64,000 nucleotides of DNA from Azospirillaceae bacterium (GTDB lineage Bacteria > Pseudomonadota > Alphaproteobacteria > Azospirillales > Azospirillaceae), in contig JAPWJW010000003.1 of assembly GCA_028283825.1 (NCBI GenBank), forward strand, positions 1,410,001-1,474,000. The letters are read 5' to 3'. This document shows positions 22,248 through 58,851 of this stretch, piece after piece. Within the stretch, counting starts at the first letter, position 1; every line of letters begins with the position of its first letter. A program made the translations under genes and the position numbers. The notes beneath the pieces were generated by a model. The model was given only the letters and a program-made list of their open reading frames with translations, searched no databases and was not told where the DNA came from.

Positions 22248-22550
22248 TGTAGTCCTCAAACGGCGGGCGCCGGCGTCCGCCGGCTTGCCTCATCCTCGAT
22301 TTCCAGTCCGCTGACGCTCCCCGTAAATCTCCGGCGGCCCCAGTCGGGGCCTACGGCGGCATGGGTTAAGCCCCATGCCGCTCGTGCAATAAGCTCCCGC
22401 CACCGTTCCGGTCTTTGCGTTTAGCGCCAAGACGTTTCGCGCAGAGCGGTCGTTATCGCCCGGCCGTGCCAACGGTATTCCTTGTCCTCGACGGCGGGCC
22501 CTTCCGGCCCACCCTGAGCAGCCCCACCTCGGGCAACCAAGGAAACCATC
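22248..22550. other. Intergenic region holding repeat copy A
   Basis: Besides the repeat (22254-22381) the remaining 170 bases contain a ribosome-binding site AAGGAA before 22551 and presumably a promoter. Nothing else is recognised. Confidence 0.35.
22254..22381 (+). repeat. Structured dispersed repeat, copy A
   Basis: Begins 6 nt after the kinase stop. First hairpin GCCGGC-gtcc-GCCGGC (22269-22284), the conserved TTTCCAGTCCGCTGACGCTC block, then a distal hairpin GCGGCATGGG/CCCATGCCGC (22356-22381). Its second-stem partners carry mismatches (GTAAA, GCGGCC). Confidence 0.85.
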
Positions 22551-23099
22551 ATGCAAGTCCTGACCGACCGTATCCTGTCCCAGTCCGCCTATAGCGCCGA
22601 GATCGACGTGCCGTTGGCCCAGGTGGATATCGGCGACTGGCTGTTCACCCTGCCGGAGGCGGAGTACCTGCGCTGCTGCGTGCCCGACCACATCGCCGCC
22701 GGCGTCACCACCACCGATGACGGCCGCCCCATGTCCATCAATGTGGAAATGATCGGTACCGGCCTGGTGGTCCAGCATTATGTGGCGGAAGAGGTCACCC
22801 CCTCCTACGTCCGCATGAACTCCATCTCCGACGTGTTCACGCCCAAGGGCCGGACCCAGGTCAACGTGGTGTGGGAACTGATCGCGGAAGCCATCCAGGG
22901 CGACCGCACCCGCTACACCAACCGCGTCACCGCCCACCCCACCGACGTCTTCCTGGCCTTCCTGGAAGCCAACGGCCAGACCTTCGAGGAAGCGGCCGCC
23001 GGCCGGCAAGCAGCGGGCGGCGACCATAACCGCCGCGAGACGCCGGAATTCGCCGCCAGCATCGCCCGGCGGGCCAAGGTCCGCGCCCGGGCGGCCTGA
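22551..23099 (+). CDS. Conserved-looking protein of unknown function (182 aa)
   Basis: I do not recognise it. It is soluble, with no signal peptide or membrane segment. The middle alternates beta-type strands (SINVEMIGTGLVVQHYVAEEV, RTQVNVVWELIAEAI), and the tail is rich in Ala, Arg and Lys. Acidic motifs include EIDVPLAQVDIGDWLF and EAEYLRCCVPDH. It is a single gene with a good AAGGAA site 6 nt upstream and a strong intrinsic terminator, which suggests it is well expressed. Confidence 0.75.
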   Translation: MQVLTDRILSQSAYSAEIDVPLAQVDIGDWLFTLPEAEYLRCCVPDHIAAGVTTTDDGRPMSINVEMIGTGLVVQHYVAEEVTPSYVRMNSISDVFTPKGRTQVNVVWELIAEAIQGDRTRYTNRVTAHPTDVFLAFLEANGQTFEEAAAGRQAAGGDHNRRETPEFAASIARRAKVRARAA

Positions 23100-23157
23100 A
23101 ATACTGCTTTACGTTTAGGGAAGCTTGACCGGCACCATTTCCACCGGTGAAAAAGGA

Positions 23158-23196
23158 AAAGCCCGCGGGAGGTGCGTCCTTCCTCCCGCGGGCTTT
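23158..23196 (+). terminator. Strong intrinsic terminator
   Basis: Perfect 15-bp stem (AAAGCCCGCGGGAGG / CCTCCCGCGGGCTTT) with a 9-nt loop, 58 bases after the stop of the gene at 22551-23099. The T-run is short (3 T within the stem). Confidence 0.85.
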
Positions 23197-23243
23197 ACGC
23201 GTCCGGCGGCCCTGAACCCGCCGGACGCGATCTTATAGTTTTC

Positions 23244-23345
23244 CCCTCAGGCGCCGGGCGGGCGCATCCACGCCCTTGGCTTATCCTCAGTTTCCAGTCC
23301 GCTTCACTCCCCGGAAACTTCCGGCGGACGCGGTCGCGTCCTAGG
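23244..23345 (+). repeat. Structured dispersed repeat, copy B
   Basis: First hairpin GGGCG-catcca-CGCCC (23260-23275), then TTTCCAGTCCGC and its partners GGAAAC and GCGGAC. It is the exception among complete copies in not sitting immediately after a stop codon; the nearest gene end on its 5' side is 23099, beyond the terminator. Confidence 0.8.
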
Positions 23346-23414
23346 AAAGAAGGTGTGGAATGAGTAGAGGGACGTGGCGACGCGGAGCTGCCGCGTCGCC
23401 GTCACTGGTTGCCT

Positions 23415-24749
23415 TTACCGCACGCCGGCGCGGCGCAGGCTGTCGGGAGAGAAGTCGGACGCCGACAGGTTGACGTTGAAGTTGTAGGGCTTTTCCTGGT
23501 TGATGAAGCCGCTGGCGGTGTAGCGGCCCGACTGCAGGTCGTACACGGTGAACAGGCCGGCCCAGTAGCTCTGGATGTCGTAGTAGTTGATGCCGTGGGC
23601 CTCGGTCACGCGCCACAGCTGTCCACGGTTGTCGTACTGATCGGCGACCAGGATGTTCCAGCTGTCCTCATCCACATAGAAGGTGCGGCGGGAATAGATG
23701 TGGCTGGTGCCGGACTTCAGCTTGCCGTCCACCACCCAGACCCGGTGCAGCTCATAGCGCGGGAAATCCTGGTTGATGTGGCCGGCCTTGATGATCTGGT
23801 CGTAGGTGTGCTTGTCGCTCTGCAGATCATAGGCGTTATAGGGGACGTACATCTCCTTCTTGCCCACCAGCGTCCATTCGTACCGGTCGGGGGAGCCGTT
23901 GAAAACGTCCAGCTGGTCGGAGGTGCGCAGGCCGTCGGTCGCCGTGCCGGGGTTGTCGTAGGCGACGTTGGGCGCGCGGCGCACGCGGCGCTGGCCGGGG
24001 TTGTAGGTCCAGGCGTTACGCGGTTCCTTGATCTGGTCCATGGTCTCATGCACCAGCAGGATCTCACCCGCCAGACGGGCCGGCGCCGTCACTTCCTGCT
24101 GGAAATACAGCGAGGTCTGGCCGTCCGGGCCGGTGTCGTTGTAGAGGAACTTCGATTTTTCATCGATGTTGATCATGGTGTAGGAGCCGTCGGACTGCGG
24201 GTTGGCCTGGCCGTACTGGCGCTCCACCTGCTTGCCCTTCCAGCGCAGGACGTGGTTCCACACCACCTCCACGCCCGTCTTCGGAATGGGGAAAGGCACG
24301 CCGATCTTGGCGCCTTCAACGCCATTGCCGTCGTCCACCAGCTTGGCCCGGGTGGCGTTGGCGATGGTCTCGTCATAGACGCTCTTGGGCAGCGAGGCGC
24401 TGCGGTGCGTCGGATAGACGTTCAGCTTGTAGTCCGGGTACTGCTTCAGCAGGGCCTTCAGGCCTTCCGGCAGCTTGTCGGCATACTGGCCCGCGTTCTG
24501 GCCGGTGATGGTGAACAGCGGCTTGTCGCCGGCATAGGGATCCACATATTGGCCGCCCGGCTTGTAGCCCGCCGGCGGCGTGGTGATGCCGCCCGTCCAT
24601 TCCGGAATGGTGCCGTCCTTGTTGGCCGCCTTTTCCGCGCCGTTGGGTGTCAAGGTCTTGCCCAGGTCGGCCGCCGTCTGGGCCGCCGCCATGCCGCCCA
24701 GGAAAACGGCCAAGGCGCCGCCCATCAGCGCGGTGTTCGTCCACTTCAT
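23415..24749 (-). CDS. DUF1329 exported protein
   Basis: 444-aa protein with a classical signal peptide (residues 1-23, cleavage after AAA-Q), followed by the DUF1329 domain: GTIPEWTGGITTPPAGYKPG, YPTHRSASLPKSVYD, WNHVLRWKG, RRAPNVAYDNPGT, WTLVGKKEMYVPYNAYDL and DSWNILVADQYDNRGQLW. The family is structurally related to outer-membrane lipoprotein-sorting proteins and is often next to RND or fatty-acid genes; its role is not established. No lipobox cysteine. The next gene upstream on the same strand starts the beta-oxidation cluster's end at 24972. Confidence 0.9.
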   Translation of the reverse strand: MKWTNTALMGGALAVFLGGMAAAQTAADLGKTLTPNGAEKAANKDGTIPEWTGGITTPPAGYKPGGQYVDPYAGDKPLFTITGQNAGQYADKLPEGLKALLKQYPDYKLNVYPTHRSASLPKSVYDETIANATRAKLVDDGNGVEGAKIGVPFPIPKTGVEVVWNHVLRWKGKQVERQYGQANPQSDGSYTMINIDEKSKFLYNDTGPDGQTSLYFQQEVTAPARLAGEILLVHETMDQIKEPRNAWTYNPGQRRVRRAPNVAYDNPGTATDGLRTSDQLDVFNGSPDRYEWTLVGKKEMYVPYNAYDLQSDKHTYDQIIKAGHINQDFPRYELHRVWVVDGKLKSGTSHIYSRRTFYVDEDSWNILVADQYDNRGQLWRVTEAHGINYYDIQSYWAGLFTVYDLQSGRYTASGFINQEKPYNFNVNLSASDFSPDSLRRAGVR

Positions 24750-26765: not shown

Positions 26766-26789
26766 CGGGGGAATTCCTTTTCGGGGAAC

Positions 26790-26811: not shown

Positions 26812-26826
26812 TCCCAAGACAGAACG

Positions 26827-31067: not shown

Positions 31068-31191
31068 CGGCATGAGCCGCGGCTCATGCCGTAGGCCGCG
31101 ACGGCGGCCGCCGGACCTTTTCGGGGAGCGTCAGCGGACTGAAAAGGGAGGATAGCCCAGCCGCCGGATGGCGGCGCCCGGCGCCTGAGGG
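31068..31191 (-). repeat. Structured dispersed repeat, copy C
   Basis: Reads in the minus direction and begins at the base after the stop of the gene at 31192. First hairpin GCCGCC-atcc-GGCGGC (31160-31175), second-stem core with TTTTC paired to GAAAA (where other copies have TTTCC/GGAAA), and a 24-bp perfect palindrome CGGCATGAGCCG/CGGCTCATGCCG at the far end (31068-31091). Confidence 0.85.
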
Positions 31192-32814
31192 TCAGATGAA
31201 AAAGTGAATCTGCGTGTGGTCGTAGCCGGTGCCCAGCAGCATGGGCTGGCCCTGGGCGACATGGAAATCCTGGCCGAAGAAATAAGCGGCCTGCTTCCAG
31301 TGGTTGGTGCGCGCGGTGGAGCGGGAGCTGTAGACCACCTCCTCATCCATGTGCAGGTCGAACCAGAAGGCCACGCCCTGCACCGTGCCGGCCTTGGTGG
31401 CCTGGACCGTCAGGCTTTTGAGGTCGCTGTCCGGCATGCTGACGCGGAAGTCGAAGAACCAGGCCGGAAAGGGTTCCGACAGGGTCTGGTGCACGTCGTG
31501 CGCCAGATCGATCTGCTGGTAGCCAGGTGACCGGAACTGGTCGAATCGGCTCATGTCGAAGCCGCTGACGGTGCGGATGGGGCTGACGCGGCGCAGATCG
31601 TCCGCCTGGATCAGCTGGGCCCAGACGGTGGCGGCGGCCGGGATGATGCGGGCGCCGGGGCGGGCCAGGTTGCGCCGGGCATGGTCCAGGATGGCCAGCA
31701 TGTCGGGGGCCAGCATGCCGACATTGACGACGTTGGACACCAGCACGTCGGCCGGGCGCTCCAGGTCCACGCCCAGCTTCAGGTCCTGCGGCCTCTTCGC
31801 CACGACGCTGACGCGGTCGGCGTAGCCGTTCAGAGCCACCGTCTCCCGCGCCACGCCGGCCAGGGCCGGCAGCGGTTCGGCCGCTATCACCCGTTCCGCG
31901 CCGGCGCGGGCCGCCATCATGCTGACCAGCGCCGAACCGGCGCCCAGCTCCAGCACCAGGTCGCCGGGGCGGATGGCGCGCGACAGGGCCGTCTCATAGG
32001 CGTCGTTGCGCTCATGATCGTTCAGGCGCGGGATGTGCCAATCGGGGATCTGGGTGCTGCGCAGCAGTTGCAGCGCGTACTGCACCGCCTGGTTTTCCGG
32101 GGAGCGGGCCTGCACACCGGTCAGCAGGGCCACCGCGTCCTCGGTCCGGTCCTGGCCCTGGAACACCTGGGCCAGGCAGATCGCCGCCTCATACCGGCTG
32201 TTGTCGGCCGCCAGCACCTGGGCGAACAGGCCGCCGGCCTCATCCAGCCGGCCGCTGTGCAGCAGCAGGGTGCCCAGATTGTACAGGGCGTCCAGATTGT
32301 CGGGCATCAGGCCCAGGGAATGGCGGAAGCAGAACTCCGCCTCTTCCAGATTGCCCAGTTCGCGCAGGGTGTTGCCCAGATTGTTGTGCCCCTCGGCATA
32401 GTGGGGGTTCAGTTCCACCGCCTCGCGGAAGCGGGCCTCGGCCTCCGCCAGGCGGCCCAGGGCGCGCAGGGCGTTGCCCAGGTTGTTCTGGCTGACGGCA
32501 TCGTCGGGGTTCAGTGTCACCGCCATGCGGAAACACAGCTCGGCCGCGGCGAAACGGCTGCAGCCGTACAGCAGCACGCCCAGGCTGTTGCGGTACTGGA
32601 AATTCTCCCCGTCCAGGGCGATGGCCTGGGTGAACAGCTCGCTGGCCTCCACCGGGCGGTTGGCCTTCAGCGCGATCACCCCCAGCAGGTGGGTGGCCTC
32701 GGCATGCACGGGATCGGTCGCCAACGCGGTGCGGCAGCTCATCTCGGCTTCCGCCAGGAAACCGGCGATCAGGTGCTGGCGGGACAAGTCCACACATTCC
32801 TGGACGAAGGACAT
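31192..32814 (-). CDS. TPR protein with PRMT-like SAM-methyltransferase domain
   Basis: 540 aa. The N-terminal half carries about six tetratricopeptide repeats (residues 10-240; for example QNNLGNALRALGRLAEAEA and GHNNLGNTLRELGNLEEAE). The C-terminal half is a class I methyltransferase related to protein arginine methyltransferases: motif I LVLELGAGSALVSMMAARAGA, IAAEPLP, and a C-terminal NHWKQAAYFFG matching the PRMT 'THW' loop. The double-E loop reads VSNVVNVGMLAPDML, so the usual first Glu is absent. Substrate unknown; the TPRs suggest a protein target. Good GAGGAG site before the ATG. Confidence 0.85.
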   Translation of the reverse strand: MSFVQECVDLSRQHLIAGFLAEAEMSCRTALATDPVHAEATHLLGVIALKANRPVEASELFTQAIALDGENFQYRNSLGVLLYGCSRFAAAELCFRMAVTLNPDDAVSQNNLGNALRALGRLAEAEARFREAVELNPHYAEGHNNLGNTLRELGNLEEAEFCFRHSLGLMPDNLDALYNLGTLLLHSGRLDEAGGLFAQVLAADNSRYEAAICLAQVFQGQDRTEDAVALLTGVQARSPENQAVQYALQLLRSTQIPDWHIPRLNDHERNDAYETALSRAIRPGDLVLELGAGSALVSMMAARAGAERVIAAEPLPALAGVARETVALNGYADRVSVVAKRPQDLKLGVDLERPADVLVSNVVNVGMLAPDMLAILDHARRNLARPGARIIPAAATVWAQLIQADDLRRVSPIRTVSGFDMSRFDQFRSPGYQQIDLAHDVHQTLSEPFPAWFFDFRVSMPDSDLKSLTVQATKAGTVQGVAFWFDLHMDEEVVYSSRSTARTNHWKQAAYFFGQDFHVAQGQPMLLGTGYDHTQIHFFI

Positions 32815-35721: not shown

Positions 35722-36264
35722 ACGTTTTCTCCCCAGGGGCGGGGCCCGTTCAGGCATAGGGCCGCCGCCGCTCCAATGTTTTGAAGCACGAGGGTGCCGA
35801 CGCTGACGACGAGGGACGCATACCCGGCGGGCGGAACGGCAACCATTCTGCCGGGACTCCAGGCCCCGGTCTAAGCCGGTAACCTGCCTGCATCGCGGGC
35901 GCTACTCAAGCGTTTCGTGCGGGGATCGCCGCCGATCATCGACACCCGGCACAACGTGTCGTTGCTGCCGGCATCACCCCCGGGATTTCGGCGGCGCCGT
36001 GAATACCGGGGTGTTGCCGGCCTGCCAGCCTGTGGATGAAAGGAACGAAGCCCCTGCCGCAGCGCAACATTTCCACACACATTACAGTAGCGGTCCCCCA
36101 CCGTTTATGTTTACCATTAAGACGGGTTAAGCCGCCGCATCGTACAAAAACAGGGATGGTTCCGGGCCGGTCCGGGCATACCCGTCGCGACGGCCATGGG
36201 GGGTGAGATCATCGGGCCGGTGCCCCTTGAGCGGGGCCGGCACATATCGGGAAGGTACTGCCTC
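35722..36264. other. Intergenic region before the cold-shock gene
   Basis: 543 bases with no gene I can support. AT-rich DNA at 36066-36125 probably carries the cold-shock gene's promoter; that would leave a leader of about 140-180 bases, a length common in cold-shock mRNAs (inference). Confidence 0.4.
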
Positions 36265-36798
36265 GTGCCACGCTTCGGATCGTATGACGCCTTCAGCCAG
36301 GACGAGGGTCTCCCGGCCAAGGCCCAGGTTAAATGGTTCAACACGTCAAAGGGCTTCGGCTTCGTTGCCCTGGAAGACGGAACGCCTGACGCATTCCTGC
36401 ACATCTCGGTGATCAGCCGGGCCGGTCTGGCCGACATTTCGGAGGGGACCGAGTTGTTGTGCACCATCGGCGCCGGGCCGAAGGGCCCGCAGGTGTTGCG
36501 CATCGTGGAAGTGACGGGCATGGCGGAGGCGCCGGAACGGCCCGGCGGCGGCGCACAGCGCCCCCGCGACCGGGTGCCCACCGGGGCCGAAATCGAGATC
36601 GACGGCACCGTCAAATGGTTCAAGGCCGACAAGGGCTTCGGCTTTGTCCTGGCCGATGACGGCGGCAAGGACGTGTTCGTGCACAAAAGCGTCCTGCGCC
36701 GTTGCGGCATGGACCACCTGGACGAAGGCCAGCGCGTGCAGATGCGCATCGCCGACGCCCCCAAGGGCCGCGAGGCGGTGTGGGTGGCGCTGGCTTAA
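36265..36798 (+). CDS. Double cold-shock-domain protein
   Basis: Two CspA-type nucleic-acid-binding domains in tandem. The first (about residues 18-85) has AQVKWFNTSKGFGFVALEDG and DAFLHISV; the second (about 110-177) has GTVKWFKADKGFGFVLADDG and DVFVHKSV. Both keep the RNP1 (KGFGFV) and RNP2 (FLHI / VFVH) aromatic residues, so both should bind single-stranded RNA or DNA. I prefer the GTG at 36265, with GGGAAGG 9 nt upstream; the ATG at 36196 has no ribosome-binding site. Repeat copy D follows the stop. Confidence 0.92.
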   Translation: MPRFGSYDAFSQDEGLPAKAQVKWFNTSKGFGFVALEDGTPDAFLHISVISRAGLADISEGTELLCTIGAGPKGPQVLRIVEVTGMAEAPERPGGGAQRPRDRVPTGAEIEIDGTVKWFKADKGFGFVLADDGGKDVFVHKSVLRRCGMDHLDEGQRVQMRIADAPKGREAVWVALA

Positions 36799-36811: not shown

Positions 36812-36928
36812 CCTCAGGCGGCGGGCGCGGCCATCCGGCCGCTTGCCTCATCCTCGCTTTCCAGTCCGCTGACGCTCCCCGGAAAGCTCCGGCGGACGCC
36901 GTCGCGTCCTACGGCGGCAAGGGCCGCC
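36812..36928 (+). repeat. Structured dispersed repeat, copy D
   Basis: Begins 13 nt after the cold-shock gene stop. First hairpin GCGGCC-atcc-GGCCGC (36827-36842); second stem GCTTTCC/GGAAAGC; GTCCGC/GCGGAC can also pair in a crossing arrangement; distal hairpin GGCGGC-aagg-GCCGCC (36913-36928). Confidence 0.85.
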
Positions 36929-37054
36929 GCTTTTGAACGCCCCGCCCCAAAATGATCACAGCCCCGGAAGCACAGCACCTTCCGGGGCTGTTTTCATGTG
37001 CGCCACACCGCCGCCGCCCCCCTCTCCCCATCGCCCACGCCAGGATCACCGGAG

Positions 37055-37164
37055 CGTAGCGACAAGGCCGCGACCGCGGCCGCCGGACCTTTCCGGGGAA
37101 TGGAGTGGACCGGAAAGGGAGGACAGCCAAGCCCCCGCAAGGGGGCGCCCGGCATTTGAGGGAA
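37055..37164 (-). repeat. Structured dispersed repeat, copy E
   Basis: Minus orientation, ending 5 nt from the alpha-2-macroglobulin stop. First hairpin GCCCCC-ttgc-GGGGGC on the minus strand (37131-37146), second stem CCTTTCC/GGAAAGG. It is the only copy with a TTGC rather than ATCC/GTCC loop. Confidence 0.8.
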
Positions 37165-37169: not shown

Positions 37170-40100
37170 CTAAGGCACGATCACCAGACTGCCGGCGACG
37201 CCGGTGGCCTGGTGATTGGGCGAAGTCCATTCCTCCACCTGGGCGGGGGCCTGGGCGTAGGTGCCGGGCAGGACGGCGCGCACCAGGTAGACCAGGCGGA
37301 AATCGCGGCGGTCGGCCGTCAGGTCCACGGCGGCGACGTAGCGGTCCTCGCGCGCCTCGACATGGGTAGCGTCGCTGATGTCGCCCACGGCACCGGACAG
37401 TTCCGGTGGCAGGCCGCCGCGCGCGATGCGCACCGTCTCGATCGCCAACCCCGCCGCCACCGGGTCGCTGACCAGGATTTGCGTCGGCGCCGTGCCGTCG
37501 GCCTTGCCCGACAGCACCACGGCCAGCAGGTCGTTCTGGTGGACATGGGCGGGATCGACCGGCTTGCCCTTCAGGTCCAGCAGGCGGCGTTCGATGGCGT
37601 ACCCTTGCGTGGCCGGTGCCGTGGCGTCGGTGACCAGCGGAATGCCGGACACGGCCACCGTGCGCTGCACCGGCTGCTGCCCGCCATTGGCGACGGACAG
37701 CGGGCGGCCGCCGATCTCCAGCCGGCGTACCAGCGGCCGGGTTTCGGCCGGCGCCTGGCCGGCCAGGCCCAGGGTCATGGACCCCGCGCGTTGCGCCAGG
37801 CCGTGGGCCGCCACCAGCAGCCAGGCGCGTTCCTGGCTGCCGATCAACGCCGGTTCGCGCAGCAGGCCCTGCACCTCCTTGGCTTGCGCCGCCAGGCGGT
37901 CCACCGGGACGTTGCCTTCGGCCAGCAGGGCCAGGCTGGCCGCCCGGTCACGCAGGTCGGAGCCAAAGTCGCGCATGCCCGGCAGGGTGATGCGCAGGCC
38001 GTCGACCCGGGCGTAGGCTTCCTGCGCCTGGGGCAGGCCGGCAGCCGCCAATGCCGCGGCGGCATGGGCACGGGCCAGGCGGGTGGGCAGCCTGTCCCAG
38101 AAGGTTTCATAGAAATAACGCACGGCCGCGGTGTCCACCGCCTTGGCCTTGGCAACCACGGCCAAGGCGTAGGCGCGGGCCGGCAGGTCGGCCGGTTCCA
38201 CCCAGCTGTTGCCGACGCTGCGCACCAGCCAGTCCAGGCCCTTGCGGTAGGGGGCGTCCGGCACGGCGTGGCCGGCGTCACGCGCCCGGGTCAGGAAGTC
38301 CATGACATAGGCGGACAGCCAGGGTTCGGCCGGGCCGTCGGCCGACCACAGGGCGAAGCCGCCGTCGGCCCGTTCCAGGGTCAGCACCTTGTCGATGGCG
38401 CGGTCCACCCGCTCACGCAGCGCCGCGTCGGTGGACAGGCCCAGGGCCTTGGCGGCATCGCCCAGATACAGCAGCGGCAGGCTGCGGCTGGCGATCTGTT
38501 CCGACGAGCCATAGGCGTTACGGTCCAGGGTCATCAGCAGGCCGGGCACGTCCAGTTCCGGCAGGGGGCTGAGCGCCAGGCCCGCAACCGCCGTTTCCGG
38601 GCGCAAGCCCTGCGCCGATTCGCTGGGCACCTGCACCGTCGTGCCGGGGCGGATGTCCACCGTCTCATGCCGGGTCACGACCGGCAGGTTGCCCCGCACC
38701 GGCACGGTGAAATCACGCGTCAGATTAAGGCCCTCCGGCCCCTTCACCGTCATCACCAGGCGGCCGTTGCCCACGGCCAGGCCCTTGATGTCGCGGTTCA
38801 GGGTGACCTTGCCGCCCTTGGCCACGCTGCGGAACACGGCGACGACGTCGCGCGGTTCCGGACGCGCCACGTCCTTGCCCTTGCGCTTCTTGGCGCCGAC
38901 GCCGCGGTTGGCGGTATCGACCGGGAAGGACAGCGGGCCTTCGGCCTGCAAGGTCACGGTATAGGTGCCCTTCACGCCGCTGACGTTGTTCAGCGTCAGG
39001 GTCAGGCGGGCGGTGTCCTCCGGCGCCAGGAAGCGGGGCAGCACCATGTCGGCCTGCACCGGATCACGCACCGACAGAACGCGGTCGGCATGGCCCAGCG
39101 CGCCGGCCGACCAGACGGTGGCCATCAGGCGCAGCCGGCCCTGGAAGTCCGGCAGGGCCAACGGTACCTGCACCTTGCCGTCATTGCCCACCGCCAGCAC
39201 GCCGGTATAGAGCGCCACCACCGGCGCGCCGCGCGGCGGCACGGAGTCCGAGGATGGGGCCGCCGCGGGCGGCGGGGCGGACGGCGCACCGTGCGGCGCC
39301 GTCAGGCGACCGTAGACGTCGTGGATGTCCACGCCCAACTGGCGCTGGCCGTAAAACCAGCCTTCGGGATCGGGGGTCTTGTAGCCGGTGAGGTCCAGCA
39401 CGCCCTGGTCCACCGCCGACAGCACCAGGTGAACGCCCTGCCCGGGTGCCGCACCCGGCACCACGATGGGAATGTGCACGGTGGTGCGCGGCCGGCTTTC
39501 GGCCGGGCCGTCGATCTTGGGCGTCAGGGTGCGGCCGGCCATGGCCACCGGCAGCCAGTCCACACCCACCGCGCGGCGCGGCAGGGACCGCCGCCCGGCC
39601 TCGACCGGGGCGAAGGCGTTGGCGATGATGTAGGCGCCGCCGCCGATGTCGGCATCGACCGGCACCTCCACCAAGGCGCCCTCGGCCCCGATCTCCCGGG
39701 TCAGGGTCTGGCGCACGGCACGGTCGGCCAGGGTGATCAGCACAGTGCTGCGGTAGGGCGGGCGCACGAAGACCGACGCCTTGGAACCGGGGACCAGCGG
39801 CCCACCGCCCACGGCACCCTTCACCGTCACCTCCACCGCATCCGGCGTCTCACCCAGGCGGGCGCTGACCCAGGAACCGGCGGCGAAACGCACACTACCG
39901 GCGACGCCGGTGGCGGGGTCGTAGACCTCAAGCCGATAACGGCCGGAGGTCACCGGCGCCTCGATCCCGGCGGGACCCTTGGCGGTGGCGGCCACGGTGC
40001 CGCCCGTCAGCTTCTGGTCGCGCACCTGGGGCTTGTAGTCCCAGCTGCCGTTGGCCTCGAACCAGACATAGTCCAGCCGTTCCTCATAGAGGTCGTAGGA

Positions 40101-48181: not shown

Positions 48182-51100
48182 ATGTTGATGCTCAGCGGTT
48201 CGTTGATCGCCGAACGGATGGATACGGAAGGCCGCGGCCCACACCCGGGGCCGGCCGGCGCCGAAACGCTGGCCGCGCTGTTCCTGGCGCGCGTCGCCGC
48301 CACGCCGTCCCTGCCCGCGGTGGAAACCGGCGACGGTTTCATGCTGACCTGGGGCGACATGGGTGATCGCGCCCGCCGCGTCGCCGCCACCCTGGCCGCG
48401 CGGGGCGTGGGCCCCGGCGCCCGCGTGATGCTGCGCGGCCGGGGCAACGCCGAGTTATACGCCTGCCTGTTCGGCATCCTGTTGCGCCGCGCCGCCTATA
48501 TCCCCATCGACGCCAGCTGGCCCGCCGCCCGCGTCGCCAGCATCGCCGAACAGGCCGAATCCCACCTGATGATCGACGTGGTGGGCGACCTGGAGGTGCC
48601 GGGCGTCACCGCCATGGCGCCGGAGGATCTGATCGGCACCGCCCTGCTGGACGACACCGTGGTGTCGGCCCACGGCCTGGCGGACGCCGTGCTGGCGCCG
48701 CTGCCCGGCGACACCTGCTATCTCATCTTCACCTCGGGCACCACCGGCCTGCCCAAGGGCGTGGTGCTGTCGCACGGCGCGGTCATGACCTATGTCCGCG
48801 GCGCGTCGGAAGTCTACCAGCTGGTGGAGACAGACCGGGTCTGGCAGGGTTTTTCCCTGGCATTCGACGCCTCGGTGGAGGAGGTGTGGCTGGCCGTGGC
48901 CGCCGGTGCCTGCCTGCTGCCGGCCTCCGGCCTGGTGATGCGCGACCCACAGCTGCTGTCGGCCGAACTGCGCTGCCGCCGCGCCACCTTCTTTTCCACC
49001 GTGCCCACCCTGCTGGGCCTGATCGACGACGAACTGCCCGACGTCCGCCTGCTGGTGGTGGGGGGGGAGACCTGCCCCGCCAGCCTGGTGGCCAAGTGGG
49101 CCCCCGGCCGGCGCATGCTGAACACCTATGGCCCCACCGAGGCCTCGGTGGTGGCGACGGCGGACGAGGCGCGCTCGGGCCAGCCGGTGACCATCGGCCG
49201 GGCCCTGCCCGGATATCGCGTGCTGGTGCTGGCGCCCGACGGGCAGCCGGTGCCGGTGGGCGAGACCGGGGAGATCCACATCGGCGGCCCGGCCCTGGCC
49301 GACGGCTACCTGAACCGGCCGGAGGAAACCGCCAAGCGTTTCAAGCTGGATGCCGCCGGCAACCGGCTGTACGCCACCGGCGACGTGGGCCGGCCGCTGA
49401 TCGACGGCCGCGTCGATTTCCTGGGCCGGGTCGACAACCAGGTGAAGCTGCGCGGCTTCCGCATCGAGCTGGGTGAGATCGAGGCCATCGTCGCCGGCTG
49501 CCCCGGCGTGCAGCTGGCCGCCGCCGCCGTGCGGCCCGTGGCCGGCATCGACAGCATCGTCATCTGGTATGTGGGCACGGCCGACCGCAACACCATCGCC
49601 GCCCACGTCGCCGCCTCCGTCCCCGCCTACATGCGGCCCAGCTTCCTGGTGCCGGTGCCGGCGATGACCCGCACCGTGGGTGGCAAGATCGACCGGCGCG
49701 AACTGCCGGAGCCCACCCCCCGCGACGTGCCGGAGGACATCGGTGATCCGCCGCAGGGCGAGGTGGAGGAAATGGTGGCCGCCGCCTTCGCCCATGCGCT
49801 GGGCCGGCCCATCCGCGCCCGCGACGCCGACTTCTTCCTGGATCTGGGCGGCCATTCCCTGGCGGCCGCCTCCGCCGTGTCCCGCCTGCGCCTGCGCCAT
49901 CCCGGCACCACCGTGCGCTCGCTGTACCTGAACCCCACCGTGCGCGGCCTGGCCCGGCACCTGGAAACCCAGCCGGGCCGGGCGACCGCCGCCCCGGCGC
50001 GCCAGGCCGCCCGCCTGCGCCACATGCTGTTCGGCCTGGCCCAGGCCGTCACCCTGCCGGTGCTGATGGTGGTGGCCAACCTGCCCACCCTGGCCATCCT
50101 GGCCGGTGCTGGCGCACAACGCCGCCAACGGCATGCTGAACCCGCTGTCCTTCGTGCTGATGGCCGTCCTGTCGGTGGTGACCCTGCCGCTGTCCTTCGC
50201 CATCGCCATCGCCGGCAAATGGCTGCTGCTGGGCAGGGTGAAGGCCGGATCGCACCGCCTGTGGGGTTTCTGGCACTGGCGCTGGTGGACGGCGCAGCGG
50301 CTGGAGGCCTTCCTGCCCATGGCCTGGATCGCCGGCACACCCCTGATGCGCCTGTACGCCCGCGCCATGGGCGGCCATATCGACAATGGCGCCTTCCTGG
50401 GCTGCCACGGCAACATGCTGTGGGACCTGATCACCATCGGGGAACGCGCCACCATCGGCGAGGATACGCTGCTGCTGACCCACCGGGTCCGCGCCGGCCG
50501 CATCGAGGTGGGCACCGTCCGCATCGGCGCCGACGCCACCGTGGGTGCCGCCGCCATCGTCGGCCTGAACAGCGCGCTGGCCGACGGCGCCGGCCTGGAC
50601 GCCCGTGGCTGCCTGGTGGAGGGCGCCACCGTGCCCACCGGCCAGGTGTGGAGCGGTTCGCCGGCCGAGCCCGCCGCCCGCCCCGACTGGATGGTGGGCA
50701 AGGCCGACGGCGCCCTGAACCCGCGCGCCGGCCGGTATGTGCTGGGCGTGGCCAGCCTGGGCCTGGTGCGTTTCGTCACCTCCCTGCCCTTGGCCGTGAG
50801 CCTGGCCCTGACCCTGGACCAGGGCGGCACCGCCGCCAGCCTGGGTGTTTCCACCCTGGTGGCGGGTGCCGTGGGCGGTGCCCTTTGCATGCCCTGGACC
50901 GCCCTGGTGCTGTGGGCCGCCCGCCGCCTGGTACCGCCGGTGGTGGGCCGGGCCAGCGTGCGGCTGGACAGCATGGTGGAATACCATCGCTGGTTCGCCG
51001 ACCGCCTGAACCGCATGGCGGTGGAACTGCTGTACAGCCTCTACGGCTCTCTGTTCGCGGCCACTTGGCTGCGCGCCTTGGGCGCCAAGGTGGGCCGCGC

Positions 51101-52109
51101 CTGCGAGGTTTCCACCGTCGCCCACGTGGTGCCGGAACAGCTGGAGGTGGGCGACCGCGCCTTCCTGGCCGACGCCTCGCTGGTGGGCAGCCCGGCCATC
51201 CATGGCGGCCTGGTGCGCTTCGCCCCCACCCGCGTGGGCAGCGGCACCTTCGTCGGCAATTCCGCCTTCCTGGCCGCCGGCACCGACCTGCCGGAGAACT
51301 GCCTGGTGGGCGTGCTGTCCACCGCCCCCGGCGACGCCGACCCCGCCACCGACTGGCTGGGCCTGCCGCCCATCCGCCTGCCCCGCCGCCAGCGGGTGGA
51401 GGGCGTGTCCGACACCCTGACCGTGGACCCCAGCCCCGTCCTGGTCGCCACCCGCGGCACCATTGAGGCGTTGCGCATCTTCACCCAGGGCGCCATCGGC
51501 GGCACCGCCACCGCCTGCGGCCTGTGGTTCCTGATGCGGGCCATGACGGCGGACGGCCTGTGGGCGGCCCTGGGCTGGCTGGGCCTGGGCCCGCTGGCCG
51601 TGGCCGCCTGCGCCGCCCTGCTGCTGGCCCTGGTGAAATGGGTGGTGGTGGGCCGCTTCCGCCCCGGCATCCACCCGCTGTGGAGTGTGGCCATCTGGCG
51701 CATCGAGTTCGTGACGGCGTTGTTTGACGCCATGTCCGGCTGGGTGCTGGGCCCCATCCTGGGCACACCCTTCCTGTCGGCCTACATGCGGCTGCTGGGC
51801 GTGCGCATCGGCCGCCGCGTCTACCTGGAAACCACCTATGTCTGCGAGATGGACCTGGTGACCATCGGCGACGACGCCGCCATCGGCCCCGGCGCCACCC
51901 TGCAGACCCATCTGTTCGAAGACCGGGTGATGAAGCTGGGCCCCGTCACCATCGGGCCGGAGGCGCAGGTGGGCGCCGGCTCCGTCGTCCTGTACGACAG
52001 CGTGCTGGAGCGCGGGTCCGACCTGGGCCCCCTGTCATTGGTCATGAAGGGCGAACATCTGCCGGCCGGCAGCCGCTTCATCGGCTGCCCCGGCCAGCCC
52101 ATCGGCTGA
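48182..52109 (+). pseudogene. Pls/PosA-type single-module peptide synthetase, frameshifted
   Basis: One gene in two frames. First frame: adenylation domain (IFTSGTTGLPKGVVLSH, FDASVEEVWLAVAAGA, NTYGPTEASVV, YATGDVGRPL, GGKIDRRELP) and a carrier domain with the phosphopantetheine serine at 559 (LDLGGHSLAAA). At about 50104 the frame breaks; the second frame (from about 50106) continues with six membrane helices and three left-handed-helix, acetyltransferase-like soluble domains, the architecture of the epsilon-poly-lysine synthetase. Deleting one G in GCCGGTG would restore one frame of 1308 aa, close to the 1319 aa of known Pls. A real frameshift or a sequencing error are both possible. See findings for the predicted substrate. 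Confidence 0.85.
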
Positions 52110-52170: not shown

Positions 52171-52272
52171 TAGGCTGCGACCGCAGCCGCCGGAGATTTC
52201 TGGGGAGCCGAAGGCGGACTGGAAACCGAGGACAGCCCAGCGGCCGGATGGCCGCGCCCGGCGCCTGAGGGA
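52171..52272 (-). repeat. Structured dispersed repeat, copy F
   Basis: Minus orientation, 4-5 nt after the carbonic anhydrase stop. First hairpin GCGGCC-atcc-GGCCGC (52240-52255 on the minus strand), second-stem core TTTC/GAAA, and GTCCGCC/GGCGGC. It shares its first stem with copy D. Confidence 0.8.
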
Positions 52273-52276: not shown

Positions 52277-52885
52277 TCAAATAGGCACTTCAACCCCGTC
52301 CTGAACCGACTTGAAGTCACCGGTCGCCTGGTCCAGCAACAGCAGGTCGGCCTCGGCCACGTCGAACAGGCAGCCGTGCAGACGCAGGCCGCCGGCCGCG
52401 ACCGCGGCGCTGATCCAGGGGAAGGTCATGAGGTTGGCGATGGTCAGGCGGATGACCTGGCGTTCCGCCTCCGCCTGGTCGCGCACGCCGCGCAGGCTGG
52501 CGGCGATGGCCATCCAGTGGCCGATGAAGTCGCCGTCCAGCGCCCCTTCGGCCAGCAGGGCCTTCACCCCGCCGCAGCCGGTATGGCCCATGACGATGAT
52601 GTCGGCCACCCGCAACTGGCGCACCGCGAACTCGATGGCGGCGCTGGTGCCGTGGTAGTCGGAATTCGGCTGGTAGGGCGGGATCAGGTTGGCGACGTTG
52701 CGGATGATGAACAGGTCGCCGGGGCCGGCGGAAAAGATCATCTGCGGATCGACACGGCTGTCGCAGCAGGCGACCACCGCGGCGCGCGGGTTCTGCCCCA
52801 CCTCCGCCAGCCACTGGAAGCGCCGGGCCTGATCCGGAAACGCGGTGGCGCGGAAATTCAGAAATCCCTCGATGAGCTTCCGCAT
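52277..52885 (-). CDS. Beta-class carbonic anhydrase
   Basis: 202-aa zinc enzyme interconverting CO2 and bicarbonate. Zinc ligands are in ACCDSRVDP (Cys, with the Asp-Arg dyad) and HTGCGGVKAL (His and Cys). FIIRNVANLIPPY and GTSAAIEFAV are also typical. Start at 52885 with GGGAG 9 nt upstream. Repeat copy F follows the stop. Confidence 0.95.
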   Translation of the reverse strand: MRKLIEGFLNFRATAFPDQARRFQWLAEVGQNPRAAVVACCDSRVDPQMIFSAGPGDLFIIRNVANLIPPYQPNSDYHGTSAAIEFAVRQLRVADIIVMGHTGCGGVKALLAEGALDGDFIGHWMAIAASLRGVRDQAEAERQVIRLTIANLMTFPWISAAVAAGGLRLHGCLFDVAEADLLLLDQATGDFKSVQDGVEVPI

Positions 52886-53102
52886 GAACGTGTCTCCCGG
52901 CGTCTGTGACTGGGCCTGGCCACCAGGGCGGCGGCCGGCCCCACGGCATACTGGTCTTGCGGGCACCGGTCAACCGAGTGGCGGCCGCGCCCTGGTCAGG
53001 GTGTTACCCCCTTCGGCGGTGCCTATATAAAGCGATGGCCCCGGCGGGGGAAAGCCCCCAAGCTGGACAGCCACGAAAGGTTGCATTGGTTTCGGCCTTC
53101 CC

Positions 53103-53621: not shown

Positions 53622-53669
53622 ACATTGGCCCGGGACAGCGCCGCCGCGAACCGTCATCATGGTGCTTCC

Positions 53670-55171: not shown

Positions 55172-56407
55172 ATGCGCGCCAAATTCTATCCCCTGATGCT
55201 GGGTGCCCTGCTGGCCGTTGGCATTGGGACCGCCCATGCCAAGGACAAGGAAAAGGACGCCACGCCGCCGGAGAAGGCCATCAGCAAGGAGCTGGTCCCG
55301 CCGCTGCAAGCCGCGCAGCAGGCCCTGGGGGAAAAGAACTACCAGGCGGTGCTGGACAACGCCGCCACGGCCGAGGCCGCCAAGGCCGACCGCACGCCCT
55401 ATGAGAATTTCCTGATCACCGAGATGCGTCTGCAGGCCTATCTGGGCCTGAAGGACAACCCGCATCTGGCCGAAGCGCTGGAGACGGAACTGGCGTCCGG
55501 CCAGTTGGCCCCGGAAGAGGCCGCCCGCCGCAGCCTGACGCTGGCCCAGGTCTATTACCAGGACAAGAACTACGCCAAGTTCCTGGAGAAGTCCGACGCC
55601 CTGGTCCAGGCCGGCACCGCCCCGGCGGAATTCTACAACCTGCGCTGCCAGGCCCAGTACTCGCTGAAGAACTTCGACGCGACCGGTCCGGCCTGCCAGG
55701 CCGCCATCGACGTGGCCACGAAGGCCGGCCAGCCGGCGCCGGAACAGATCTACCAGATGCAGCTGGACAGCACCGTCCGCCGCAAGGATTACAGCGCCTA
55801 TGTCGACGGCCTGGGTGAGATCCTGAAGTACTACCCGAAGCAGGATTACTGGGCCGACTACCTGACCTTCATGCAGAAGAAGCCGGGCTATTCCGACCGC
55901 CTGACGCTGGACGTCTATCGCCTGATGCTGCGCGTCAACGCCATCAAGGAAGGCAACGAGTACCTGGACATGGCCGATCTGGCCAGCCACGCCGCCCTGC
56001 CGGGCGAAGCCAAGGCCGTCCTGGAAAAGGGCCAGCCCCTGCTGGGTGGCAACCCGACCGCCAAGCAGATGCTGGCGGAGAGCACCAAGGCCGCGGCGGA
56101 AGACCAGAAGACCATCGACAAGACGGTGGCCGAGGCCGCCAAGGCCCCGACCGGCGTCCCGCTGGAAAAGCTGGGCCAGGCCTACGCCAGCTACGGCAAC
56201 TACCCCAAGGCGATTGAGCTGATCCAGCAGGGCATCGCCAAGGGCGTGAAGGAACCGAACGACGCCAAGCTGCATCTGGCGGAGGTGTACGTCGCCGCCG
56301 GCCAGAAGGATCAGGCCGTGAAGATCTTCCAGGAACTGGCCAACGCCGGCCCGGGCTTCAAGGAACTGTCCAACGGCTGGCTGATCTATCTGAACCAGCC
56401 GGCTTAA
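55172..56407 (+). CDS. Exported TPR-rich protein of unknown function
   Basis: 411 aa. Signal peptide at residues 1-23 (AHA cleavage). The rest is alpha-solenoid, with TPR-like helical pairs, for example LQAAQQALGEKNYQAVLDNAATAE near the start and KLGQAYASYGNYPKAIELIQQGIAKG toward the end. Probably a periplasmic assembly or binding scaffold; the ligand is unknown. Start at 55172 with GAGG 5 nt upstream. Repeat copy G follows the stop. Confidence 0.8.
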   Translation: MRAKFYPLMLGALLAVGIGTAHAKDKEKDATPPEKAISKELVPPLQAAQQALGEKNYQAVLDNAATAEAAKADRTPYENFLITEMRLQAYLGLKDNPHLAEALETELASGQLAPEEAARRSLTLAQVYYQDKNYAKFLEKSDALVQAGTAPAEFYNLRCQAQYSLKNFDATGPACQAAIDVATKAGQPAPEQIYQMQLDSTVRRKDYSAYVDGLGEILKYYPKQDYWADYLTFMQKKPGYSDRLTLDVYRLMLRVNAIKEGNEYLDMADLASHAALPGEAKAVLEKGQPLLGGNPTAKQMLAESTKAAAEDQKTIDKTVAEAAKAPTGVPLEKLGQAYASYGNYPKAIELIQQGIAKGVKEPNDAKLHLAEVYVAAGQKDQAVKIFQELANAGPGFKELSNGWLIYLNQPA

Positions 56408-56767
56408 TATATTTCGCCCTCAAGCGCCGGGCGCCGCCATCCGGCGGCTTGGGCTTCCTCACTGCGCCCTACGGTGCTCGTTCCGGGGCCGGCGGTCGCC
56501 GGCCTGGGGATGAGGGAAAGAGCCAGCTTCAGCGCAATATCGTGAGGAACGGGGTCGGCCCAGCGCCGGCCCCGTTTCTTTTTGCGGCAAAACGGGCCGG
56601 AACGGGCCCGATGGCCGCCGCCGACCTCGACGGCGCGCGGGGGCGCCGTTACACTCCCGGCCCATCTCGGCCCGGTCCGCCCGCATGGCGGGGCTCGAAA
56701 CAGAGAATGGCGGCCGGCGCCTTCAAGCCATCGATGGGGATATTCCTTACATGACGGATTTCATCCG
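56408..56767. other. Intergenic region before the OPT transporter
   Basis: 360 bases with repeat copy G and the 56487-56504 hairpin. The frame of the next gene stays open back through 56582, but that stretch shows no ribosome-binding site or conserved sequence, so I leave it out. Confidence 0.4.
56417..56475 (+). repeat. Structured dispersed repeat, copy G (partial)
   Basis: Begins about 10 nt after the stop of the preceding gene. First hairpin GCCGCC-atcc-GGCGGC (56433-56448) is intact; the TTTCC/GGAAA block is missing. A separate hairpin GGCCGGCG-gt-CGCCGGCC follows at 56487-56504. Confidence 0.75.
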
Positions 56768-58795
56768 ATGACCCAGCCCGGGCACAGCACGATGCGGGAA
56801 CTGACCCTGCGCGGCATCATCCTGGGTGCCTTGATCACCGTGGTGTTCACCGCCGCCAACGTCTATCTGGGCCTGAAGGTCGGGCTGACCTTCGCCTCCT
56901 CCATCCCGGCGGCCGTCATCTCGATGGCGGTCCTGCGGCTGGCCAAGGACAGCACCATCCAGGAGAACAACTTCGTCCAGACCCTGGCATCGGCCGCCGG
57001 CACCCTGTCGTCGGTGATCTTCGTGTTGCCGGGCTTGGTGATCGTGGGGTACTGGACGGGCTTCCCCTTCTGGGAATCGGCCGGCATCTGCGCCGTGGGC
57101 GGCATCCTGGGCGTCATGTACACGGTACCGCTGCGCCGGGCCATGGTGGTGCAGGGCAACCTGCCCTATCCCGAGGGTGTGGCCGCGGCCGAGGTGCTGA
57201 AAGTCGGTTCGCCCGACACCGCCGGTGAGGCAGGGGCCGATGAGGCGTCCAGGGGGGCCGGCCTGCGCGACGTGGTGGCCGGCACCATCGTGTCCATCGG
57301 GTTCTTCCTGATGACCGCCATGCGCTTCTTCACCGAGCAGTTTCAGGGGTTCCTGCGCATCGGCAATGCCGTCACCGGCATCGGCACCGGCCTGTCCATG
57401 GCCCTGCTGGGTGCCGGCTACCTGGTCGGCGCCACGGTGGGCGTCGCCATGTTCGTGGGCGTGGCCATCGCGTGGTTCGGCGCGGTACCGCTGCTGACCT
57501 GGATGCACCCGCCGACGGACGGCATGGATCTGGTGAAGTACGCCAACAGCGTCGTCTGGCGCCAACAGGTTCGCCTGATCGGCGCCGGCGCCATCGCCAC
57601 CGCCGCCATCTGGACGCTGATCGTCCTGGCCCGCCCCATGGTGGACGGCATTCGCGCCTCGCTGGCGGCCATGAAGCATGTGCGCGGCGGCCAGGGCCAC
57701 ACCCTGCCGCGGGTGGAGCGGGACATCCCCTTCCACTACGTCATGGCCTTCGCCGCCGTGCTGCTGGTGCCGCTGGCCGGCCTGTTCATCGCCTTCATCC
57801 TGGGCACGCCCCTGTCGGGCCAGCTGGTCACCCTGGTGCTGGCCTGCGTGGCCTTCGCCGCCGTGATGGGTTTCATCGTGGCCGCAGCCTCCGGCTACAT
57901 GGCCGGCCTGATCGGCAGTTCCAACAGCCCCATCTCCAGCATCGGCATCCTGGCGGCCATCGCCTCGTCCCTGATGCTGATCGGCATCCTGGGCAACACC
58001 GCCGTGGCCGACCCGGTGGTGCGCGCCACCGCCGTGGCCCTGGCCCTGTTCACCACCGCCGTGGTGCTGACCATCGCCACCATCGCCAACGACAACCTTC
58101 AGGACCTGAAGACCGGCCAGCTGGTGGGCGCCACGCCCTGGCGCCAGCAGGTGGCCCTGGTGCTGGGCTGCGTCGTCGGCGCCGTGGTCATCCCGCCGGT
58201 GCTGAACCTGCTGCAGCACGCCTACGGCTTCGCCGGCGCGCCGCTGGATCCGGGCATGGACCCGGAAAAGGTGCTGGGCGCGCCGCAGGCGACGCTGATG
58301 GCCACCCTGGCCACCGGCATCCTCAGCGGCAAGCTGGACTGGTCCATGCTGGGCATCGGCGCCATCGTCGGCGCCTGCCTGGTGATCGTGGATGAGGTGC
58401 TGAAGGCCACCACCCGCCGCTTCCGCCTGCCGCCGCTGGCCGTGGCCCTGGGCATCTACCTGCCCATGACCGTCACCGTGCCCGTCAGCATCGGCGCCTT
58501 CCTGGCCTGGCTGGCCGACCGCGCGCTGGAACGCCGGGCCAAGGCCGCCGGCGTGCCCTTCGCCACATACGCCGACGTGCCGCAGCGCCGCGCCATGCTG
58601 CTGGCGTCCGGCATGATCGTGGGCGAGAGCCTGTTCGGTGTGGCCCAGGCGGCCATCATCTCCGCCACCGGCAACCAGGAGCCCCTGGCCGTCATGGGCG
58701 ACGGCTTCGCCGGGGCCGCCGAATGGCTGGGTGGTGCCGTCTTCCTGGTGGCCTGCCTGTGGAGCTATCGCTGGGTGCTGGCCGAACGCAAGTGA
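56768..58795 (+). CDS. OPT-family oligopeptide/metal-chelate transporter
   Basis: 675-aa integral membrane protein of the oligopeptide transporter (OPT) superfamily. Typical motifs are ITVVFTAANVYLGLKVGLTFASSIPAAVISM (TM1-2), NNFVQTLASAAGTLSS and GNLPYPEGVAAAEVLKVG; about 15 helices. It likely imports peptides or metal chelates by proton symport; the ligand is unknown. Start at 56768. Confidence 0.92.
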   Translation: MTQPGHSTMRELTLRGIILGALITVVFTAANVYLGLKVGLTFASSIPAAVISMAVLRLAKDSTIQENNFVQTLASAAGTLSSVIFVLPGLVIVGYWTGFPFWESAGICAVGGILGVMYTVPLRRAMVVQGNLPYPEGVAAAEVLKVGSPDTAGEAGADEASRGAGLRDVVAGTIVSIGFFLMTAMRFFTEQFQGFLRIGNAVTGIGTGLSMALLGAGYLVGATVGVAMFVGVAIAWFGAVPLLTWMHPPTDGMDLVKYANSVVWRQQVRLIGAGAIATAAIWTLIVLARPMVDGIRASLAAMKHVRGGQGHTLPRVERDIPFHYVMAFAAVLLVPLAGLFIAFILGTPLSGQLVTLVLACVAFAAVMGFIVAAASGYMAGLIGSSNSPISSIGILAAIASSLMLIGILGNTAVADPVVRATAVALALFTTAVVLTIATIANDNLQDLKTGQLVGATPWRQQVALVLGCVVGAVVIPPVLNLLQHAYGFAGAPLDPGMDPEKVLGAPQATLMATLATGILSGKLDWSMLGIGAIVGACLVIVDEVLKATTRRFRLPPLAVALGIYLPMTVTVPVSIGAFLAWLADRALERRAKAAGVPFATYADVPQRRAMLLASGMIVGESLFGVAQAAIISATGNQEPLAVMGDGFAGAAEWLGGAVFLVACLWSYRWVLAERK

Positions 58796-58800
58796 GGCGG
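58784..58800 (+). repeat. Left copy of a 17-bp direct duplication
   Basis: GAACGCAAGTGAGGCGG covers the last codons and TGA stop of the OPT gene and is repeated exactly at 58885-58901. The 84 bases between contain repeat copy H and a perfect hairpin. Confidence 0.85.
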
Positions 58801-58851
58801 GCAAGGCCCGGGAGCCAAGCCAGCGGATGCTGGCGCCCGGCGCCTGAGGGG
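58801..58851 (-). repeat. Structured dispersed repeat, copy H (partial)
   Basis: Only the first hairpin half of the family is present, GCCAGC-atcc-GCTGGC (58819-58834, minus), ending in the CTCAGGCGCCGGGCG-type sequence. It is on the strand opposite to the upstream OPT gene, unlike most copies. It lies between the two 17-bp direct copies. Confidence 0.75.

Follow-up and report, generated by a model that had tools for sequence, protein, structure and literature searches.

The question raised by a stretch of 64,000 nucleotides from a Nitrospirillum genome of 7.16 Mb in five contigs (G000:C3:1410001-1474000, hereafter the window) is how a dispersed intergenic repeat can change the letters of its hairpin stems and keep these stems paired, and in which nucleic acid that pairing counts. 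A preliminary description of the window had listed eight copies of the repeat, had proposed that the fold is selected, in RNA or single-stranded DNA, and had suggested a covariation test and searches for further copies and for a transposase associated with repetitive extragenic palindromes (REP), RAYT. A profile built on sequence only (E<=1e-3) recovered all eight copies at the places described, and the stems of their first hairpin were as quoted. Hairpins are kept by paired changes, with near-fixed linkers and loops; chance is excluded as the source of the pairing, and the mismatches found point to DNA, and not RNA, as the place where the pairing is kept. The explanation that we favour, with roughly even chances of being right, sees the copies as a family of short, palindromic and non-autonomous DNA elements, similar to REPs and miniature inverted-repeat transposable elements (MITEs), with up to five consecutive hairpins and without RAYT.

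Hairpins and fixed letters of the element

Copies were collected from 1.2 Mb of the host genome chosen by place (7.5 kb of it N) with a profile cut-off of E<1e-4, which gave 85 copies spread over all five contigs or, by extrapolation, about 500 copies per genome. The whole element measures about 100-180 bp and its hairpins (hp) follow the order (hp0)-CCTCA-hp1-TCCTC-hp2-TCCGGC-hp3-TA-(hp4). The core, of 97-101 nt, reads CCTCA-NN-CGCCGGGC-hp1-TTGGCT-N(0-3)-TCCTC-hp2-TCCGGC-hp3-TA. A 6-bp stem with an ATCC loop makes up hp1, around which CGCC..GGC forms a short outer stem, also found as the paired alternative CGGC..GCC; hp2 has a 7-bp stem that encloses the conserved internal loop AGTCC/TCCCC with an inner stem of 2 bp, and exists also in a short variant; hp3 has a 6-bp stem and the loop NGTC. 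On the 3' side of many cores lies hp4 (CAGCGGCATGAG..CTCATGCCGCTG; 75 distinct pattern matches in 213 copies, a few of them spurious), and on the 5' side of some lies hp0 (GGCATTTGATC..GATCAAATGCC; 33 distinct matches in 191 copies with an intact 5' end, again with a few spurious); both patterns were matched in 14 copies. Other copies have alternative 3' ends, with TTGTCGC or TAGG tails.

For pairing and conservation, 70 genome copies were aligned without reference to structure (alignment A3; 24 named pairs, 1645 cells). Profile alignments lose end columns by trimming, and the conservation of end columns was therefore recounted on the untrimmed alignment. Unpaired letters were near-fixed in the 70 rows (CCTCA in 66, TCCTC in 69, GTC of the hp3 loop in 67, the hp1 loop ATCC in 58 and GTCC in 4, TCCGGC in 58 and TGCGGC in 8, the final TA in 61 and TT in 7), whereas in stem columns the frequency of the commonest letter went down to about 0.5. 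The stems were paired in 95.7% of the cells vs. 76.3% (sd 0.6) with partners re-dealt, and 270 cells presented a two-sided change vs. 66.5 in shuffles; none of 500 shuffles matched A3 in paired percentage, two-sided cell count or covariation score. Two coarser measures, with weaker outcomes, were the number of pairs with any two-sided change (16 of 24 vs. 13.2, reached by 8 of 500 shuffles) and that of further pair types (41 vs. 37.9, reached by 33 of 500). When partners were slid by 1-3 columns, the covariation score fell from 0.476 to at most 0.088. Paired variation occurred also in hp2, in hp3, in the outer 3-bp stem of hp1, one pair of which is C-G in 57 copies and G-C in 10, and in the 2-bp inner stem of hp2.

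A pattern search with the four inner stem letters of hp1 left free found perfectly complementary arms in 37 of 39 copies of the sister species G001; with arms re-dealt, the mean was 4.1 and the maximum 11 of 39. Ten matches from Azospirillum and Niveispirillum (nine good and one weak, E 0.085; 8 distinct rows) kept the hairpin structure in 97.3% of 147 cells, a value reached by 0 of 500 shuffles, in an alignment that was fitted to the model and is thus biased towards it. The earlier statement that the first hairpin is always perfectly paired and its loop nearly constant holds in general, except that the copy at 23245 has C.A at the loop-closing pair and the copy at 37065 has the loop TTGC. A three-way junction closed by CGCCGG/CCGGCG, taken from single-sequence folds, was rejected (93.9% paired, zero two-sided changes and no excess over shuffles).

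Two further observations concern the copies themselves. At the hp2 pair next to the internal loop (A3 columns 54/76), 16 of 69 distinct copies have C.A in place of C-G, as if the mismatch were tolerated or itself wanted. Elsewhere on the contig of the window, three near-identical copies stand in tandem at C3:1217343-1217694 (starts 1217343, 1217469 and 1217597; period about 126 nt), two of them with the TTGTCGC tail and not hp4; a comparable tandem cluster occurs in G001 C4 near 249.7 kb.

Pairing in DNA or in RNA

If pairing were tested in a single RNA strand, G.U should be accepted much more readily than A.C, so that parity between the two fits pairing in DNA better. Over 23 pairs in 213 copies from seven genomes we counted 46 G.T, 65 A.C, 89 other mismatches and 4186 Watson-Crick pairs; this leaves out one habitually mismatched pair, with which G.T and A.C become 47 vs. 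99. Stems of transfer RNAs (tRNAs) from the same DNA (17 fixed stem pairs in 11 tRNAs, 3 doubtful tRNAs being skipped) displayed 17 G.T, 0 A.C, 2 others and 168 Watson-Crick pairs. Two-way transcription could mask a preference for G.U in convergent gaps; it could not in tandem gaps, where copies read on the transcribed strand had 8 G.U vs. 9 A.C (Fisher p 0.0009 against tRNA, with small numbers). This parity, together with an orientation of 16:19 in tandem gaps and with G-C/C-G swaps as the most frequent change of pair, argues for DNA-level pairing; the initial choice between RNA and single-stranded DNA is narrowed accordingly by the contrast with the 17:0 of the tRNAs.

Placement was obtained with gene calls from a small home-made caller, on which the counts depend. 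Convergent gaps, which make up 20.6% of the intergenic length (gaps of at least 100 nt), held 45 of the 83 placed copies (p about 2e-11) and divergent gaps, with 32% of that length, held 3 (p about 2e-10); the remaining 35 lay in tandem gaps, 16 of them sense and 19 antisense. At least one gene 3' end was faced by 80 of the 83, a predicted gene was overlapped by more than 30 nt in 2 of 85 copies, and for the 61 copies with a co-oriented upstream gene the median distance from stop to core was 13 nt. Among 159 convergent gene pairs 41 hold a copy; where the gap measures 108-172 nt, 27 of 33 pairs do so. According to PMC3733652, REPs are placed likewise, at gene 3' ends and in convergent gaps.

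Such a placement behind stop codons and the occupation of convergent pairs would suit a functional RNA, with hairpins in the 3' ends of both convergent transcripts that act as two-way terminators or 3'-end protectors; parity would then arise because both strands are transcribed and G.U on one is A.C on the other. The fixed unpaired loops and linkers resemble a binding surface, and the placement is like that of REPs thought to act in RNA (PMC3733652). However, tandem gaps still gave 8:9 for G.U and A.C and 16:19 for orientation, small as these numbers are, and no T run 3' of the element hairpins was noticed by eye in the copies inspected. Gaps occupied by a copy were no poorer in canonical terminators, which were present in 15 of 41 occupied vs. 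22 of 54 unoccupied convergent gaps and in 8 of 34 occupied vs. 41 of 285 unoccupied tandem gaps. We consider a functional RNA unlikely. Termination through a canonical hairpin plus T run was rejected as a function, there being no clear enrichment or depletion of terminators at copies.

The copies of the window and their neighbours are collected in Table 1.

Table 1. Copies of the element in the window, hairpins of the type copy and adjacent genes (positions are those of the window).
Feature	Position	Strand	Description
Copy 1	22254..22381 (core 22254-22353)	+	core + hp4; profile match; tandem gap
Copy 1 neighbour	20943-22247	+	histidine-kinase-like gene; stop 6 nt upstream of copy 1
Copy 2	23245..23343	+	core without hp4; profile match; convergent gap
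Copy 2 neighbours	22551-23099 and 23415-24749	+ and -	convergent pair of genes around copy 2; the second DUF1329
Copy 3	31068..31190 (core 31092-31190)	-	core + hp4; profile match
Copy 3 neighbour	31192-32814	-	gene; stop 1 nt from 5' end of copy 3
Type copy	36812..36929 (core 36812-36911)	+	CCTCA-hp1-hp2-hp3-hp4; profile match
Type copy neighbour	36196-36798	+	cold-shock-domain gene; stop 13 nt before type copy
Type copy hp1	36827..36842	+	GCGGCC ATCC GGCCGC; 5 of 6 pairs with two-sided changes in 70 copies
Type copy hp2	36856..36887	+	GCTTTCC / GGAAAGC; conserved internal loop AGTCC..TCCCC inside; 2-bp inner stem
Type copy hp3	36894..36909	+	GGACGC CGTC GCGTCC; loop GTC in 67/70 aligned copies
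Type copy hp4	36912..36929	+	variable hairpin, here CGGCGGC..GCCGCCG
Copy 5	37065..37161	-	core; TTGTCGC tail instead of hp4; convergent gap common with type copy
Copy 5 neighbour	ending at 37170	-	gene; stop 8 nt from 5' end of copy 5
Copy 6	52171..52270	-	core without hp4; predicted convergent gap; profile match
Copy 6 neighbours	52277-52966 and 50106-52109	- and +	carbonic-anhydrase gene, stop 6 nt from 5' end of copy 6; gene opposite
Copy 7	56418..56505 (core 56418-56500)	+	short-hp2 variant; profile match
Copy 8	58813..58849	-	hp1 only, truncated; profile match
Copy 8 hp0	58851..58880	-	upstream hairpin GACAGTTGATCG..CGATCAACTGTC attached to copy 8

At 36812-37164 two copies stand face to face with a canonical terminator-like hairpin between them (about 36960-36995); at the same site G001, G002, G005 and G006 have the terminator alone and no copy of the element. 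At the site of copy 7, G001, G002, G003 and G006 carry a copy whose orientation is opposite to that in the window.

Change of copies between sister species

Sites were compared in three species that are 94-95% identical, G001 being covered by about 315 kb, G003 by 398 kb and G006 by 406 kb. The 81 site comparisons yielded 45 copies in the same orientation, 1 in the opposite orientation only, 19 sites without a copy and 16 that were unmapped. At same-orientation sites 703 of 875 pairs were unchanged, 117 had changed on both sides, 37 had a single change to a mismatch, 7 had changed via G.U and 11 otherwise; the two-sided changes comprised 54 C-G/G-C flips, 1 A-T/T-A, 40 transitions and 22 G-C/T-A. 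Stem letters differed in 17% and unpaired letters in 9%, with 9-11% at four-fold sites, which serve only as a proxy for neutral divergence; the same-site pairs come from three species and hence are not independent. In 37 near-complete same-site pairs stems differed on average by 0.177 and unpaired letters by 0.100, the values for 1739 random pairs of the family being 0.269 and 0.148. Same-site stem difference was mixed (0.00-0.07 in some pairs and 0.25-0.39 in others), some pairs being nearly identical and others as far apart as family members taken at random.

The fold is kept as letters change, as had been claimed; selection for it is one reading among others, since template-switch correction or copy replacement could maintain the pairing with no selection on each copy. 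In the first of these processes, template switching at quasi-palindromes would copy one arm to the other during replication, with no selection on each copy, while stems drift near the neutral rate and loops are fixed by youth or some other cause. The whole-pair swaps agree with this (117 two-sided changes vs. 37 single to mismatch and 7 via G.U), as do the 54 flips among the 117, which cannot pass through G.U, and a same-site stem difference of 17% vs. 9-11% at four-fold sites; in PMC8794818, template switching is argued for RNA genes. Nevertheless, near-invariant linkers and loops are left unexplained, visual inspection of the alignments revealed none of the loop inversions that some template switches should leave, and 11 of 16 same-site pairs differ in all three stems (random pairs 80%), which looks like whole-copy replacement. 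Upkeep by mutation without selection seems to us improbable.

Copy replacement supposes ectopic gene conversion between members of the family, which rewrites an entire copy or one of its hairpins where it stands and keeps the orientation. It would account for the 45:1 orientation at shared sites and for the mixed same-site divergence. Within-stem haplotypes fall below the number for free columns (30 vs. 50 in hp1, 48 vs. 59 in hp2 and 23 vs. 30 in hp3) and linkage between hairpins is weak (p 0.004, 0.002 and 0.36), both of which are in its favour. On the other hand, homology runs between copies are short, being linkers of 10-20 nt, and RecA is generally said to need longer homology than such runs; moreover, replacement tells how copies change and not why they are present or paired. 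We hold it to be possible, though short of probable; it can act together with the spread of mobile elements that we favour, and none of the alternatives, or the likelihoods given to them, excludes another.

Swapping of single hairpins as cassettes at one site was discarded, as its signal arose from partial copies: of the 16 pairs that could be compared in full (12 sites), 11 had changed in each of the three stems, near the random pattern. Whole-copy replacement or saturation fits better than cassette swapping. Some sites thus keep their own copy and others carry a different copy in the same orientation, whether by conversion, re-insertion or in-place change.

A near-clean empty site was found in the comparison of G006, which has a full hp4-core-hp0 element (syn.fa 133118-133204), with G003, which is empty and retains TAATAC; the flanks are too diverged for reading a target duplication. 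It is the best candidate here for locating the insertion ends.

Relatives, known systems and meaning

The core model found copies in 7/7 Nitrospirillum genomes, 106 to 150 of the best 150 candidates passing per genome, and an exact pattern of the element centre, run over genome contigs, gave 16 stretches, all from Nitrospirillum or Azospirillum sp. B4. In 79 genomes of the family (best 51 candidates each), the threshold of E<=1e-6 was passed by only 6 outside the genus, each of which had 1-2 matches; the best of these share the unpaired letters of hp1 and differ in hp2 and in the stems, one having the CGGC..GCC variant of the outer stem. Of 82 genomes of the order, 21 contained exact matches to hp1 on its own with stem letters free, at 118 places in the host of the window and at 4-90 places each in 11 genomes of one other genus. 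G010, from another genus of the family, had 380 exact hp1 matches, with one stem (GGCG) in 47 of 48 among the matches listed, and all 13 matches of G122 had that same stem; compared with the many stems in Nitrospirillum, the G010 set looks like a recent burst. In the class, hp1 alone occurred in 6 of 190 genomes (families f1, f43, f45 and f81) and, among 385 genomes, 4 had hp1 with a stem of 7 bp (families f1, f13 and f36). The reversed control pattern gave 0 among the matches listed in all three hp1 scans.

Plasmids of Azospirillum ramasamyi, lipoferum, argentinense and brasilense and of Niveispirillum cyanobacteriorum carry copies as well, with no annotated feature under them in 12 of 12 records. 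In the nine copies inspected by eye the order hp1, hp2, hp3 is kept with other stems (L222 breaks off in hp3), and hp4 is present in eight and hp0 in seven. Placement was examined in nine of the twelve matched records, two of which have no annotation at the copy; by NCBI annotation, the seven with annotated neighbours comprised three convergent (L221, L222 and L224), three tandem (L225, L228 and L229) and one divergent (L223).

The likeness to REP/BIME in size and setting noted in the preliminary description was borne out. As in REP, BIME and REPIN systems (PMC3733652 and PMC3116915), there are hundreds of extragenic palindromes whose stems vary within the family, some of them in inverted pairs or tandem clusters, and REPs lie no more than 20 bp from the 3' end of an upstream gene or of convergent genes (PMC3733652). 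Unlike a REP, described there as one palindrome of 20-40 bp, the element has 100-180 bp and 3-5 different hairpins in fixed order, although hp1 alone would fit such a single-stem unit. It has no clear GTAG or CGTC tag at hp1; CCTCA (66/70) sits 10 nt before the hp1 stem and 3 nt before the outer stem, and the TA after hp3 (61/70), for which C is a frequent next letter, gives GTAG on the minus strand, with the last G paired. From REPIN/RAYT it differs in that its genus has no detected Y1/RAYT transposase.

MITEs such as RUP, Correia/NEMIS, ERIC and Nezha share with the element its size, intergenic setting and presence or absence between close genomes, and its longest copies have possible terminal inverted repeats (TNATAC..GCGGCAT / ATGCCGCTGGTAT). 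In contrast, the stretches examined yielded no insertion sequence (IS) with matching ends, hp0 and hence one end are absent from most copies, the element is very GC-rich, and a target duplication is not shown. The pneumococcal BOX (PMC3049150) also has several structured modules, missing or repeated, many copies and a predicted RNA fold; its host and modules are other, and the element has dense paired changes and fixed linkers and lies after stop codons in both orientations. A CGTC REP family is listed for Azospirillum lipoferum, of the same bacterial family as the host, with CCTC as a variant of the CGTC tag (PMC3733652). CGTC REPs have single stems of 8-9 bp, A-T first pairs and a CCA tail, none of which hp1 has, and this description sets them apart; the A. 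lipoferum consensus itself stands in a figure of that paper, and the two may still be identical. As to a named family, the window had 0 Rfam matches above the gathering score, nothing was recognised as this family among the matches listed in the literature searches, and a term search in PMC3245306 (Azospirillum genomes) gave nothing on such repeats, in agreement with the preliminary description.

Several results weigh against the explanation that we favour. Orientation at shared sites is kept 45:1, which fresh insertion does not predict, and the mismatch parity is uneven: hp1, hp3 and the outer stem alone give 33 G.T vs. 23 A.C, and hp2 alone 8 vs. 34. Along the largest replicon there is no strand contrast (p 0.25; 79 matches among the best 150), which gives no hint that the lagging strand is targeted. 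A mobilising enzyme for the element was not found, a target-site duplication is not established at the one near-clean empty site with its diverged flanks, and conservation of the terminal inverted repeats (TNATAC.. / ..GTAT) is weak, with 5-14 identities of 20 in 15 copies.

Candidates for a mobiliser were also rejected. The expected RAYT is ruled out at the Pfam level, Y1_Tnp (PF01797) having no match in any of the 7 Nitrospirillum genomes; the control search matched in 5 of 14 known genomes. In 1.2 Mb, from a list judged by eye, no inward-facing pair of core-less ends within 3 kb suggested a partner IS, and an IS630 neighbour in Azospirillum ramasamyi has one end match and lacks the second.

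The element is best taken as a variant of the known REP/MITE kind, for which we infer a mobiliser and a function. Pairing would matter in DNA, with hairpins extruded from single-stranded or supercoiled DNA, and a candidate protein may read the fixed loops and linkers together with the shape, not the stem letters. Elements would spread in bursts by means of a putative enzyme, land or survive behind stop codons, and later let their stem sequence drift while the hairpin shape stays. A side effect possibly useful to the host is that a symmetric hairpin block between convergent genes may attenuate read-through or mark a topological boundary.

More tentatively, and with less than even likelihood, multi-hairpin DNA elements might form a widespread alphaproteobacterial class that maintains its pairing in DNA through a RAYT-independent enzyme or through arm-to-arm templated repair. 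If so, stem letters would outpace four-fold sites by whole-pair swaps with loops and linkers fixed, and classical covariation, the usual proof of functional RNA, would here mark a DNA hairpin. Departures through G.U or A.C let the question of RNA or DNA be asked of this standard proof, a test made possible by hundreds of copies per genome and by sister genomes at 5-15% divergence. If the DNA answer holds, some covarying 'RNA motifs' from genome scans may be DNA hairpins. For Nitrospirillum and its relatives, the element would be a REP-like system without a detected RAYT, whose spread is testable in culturable plant-associated nitrogen fixers.

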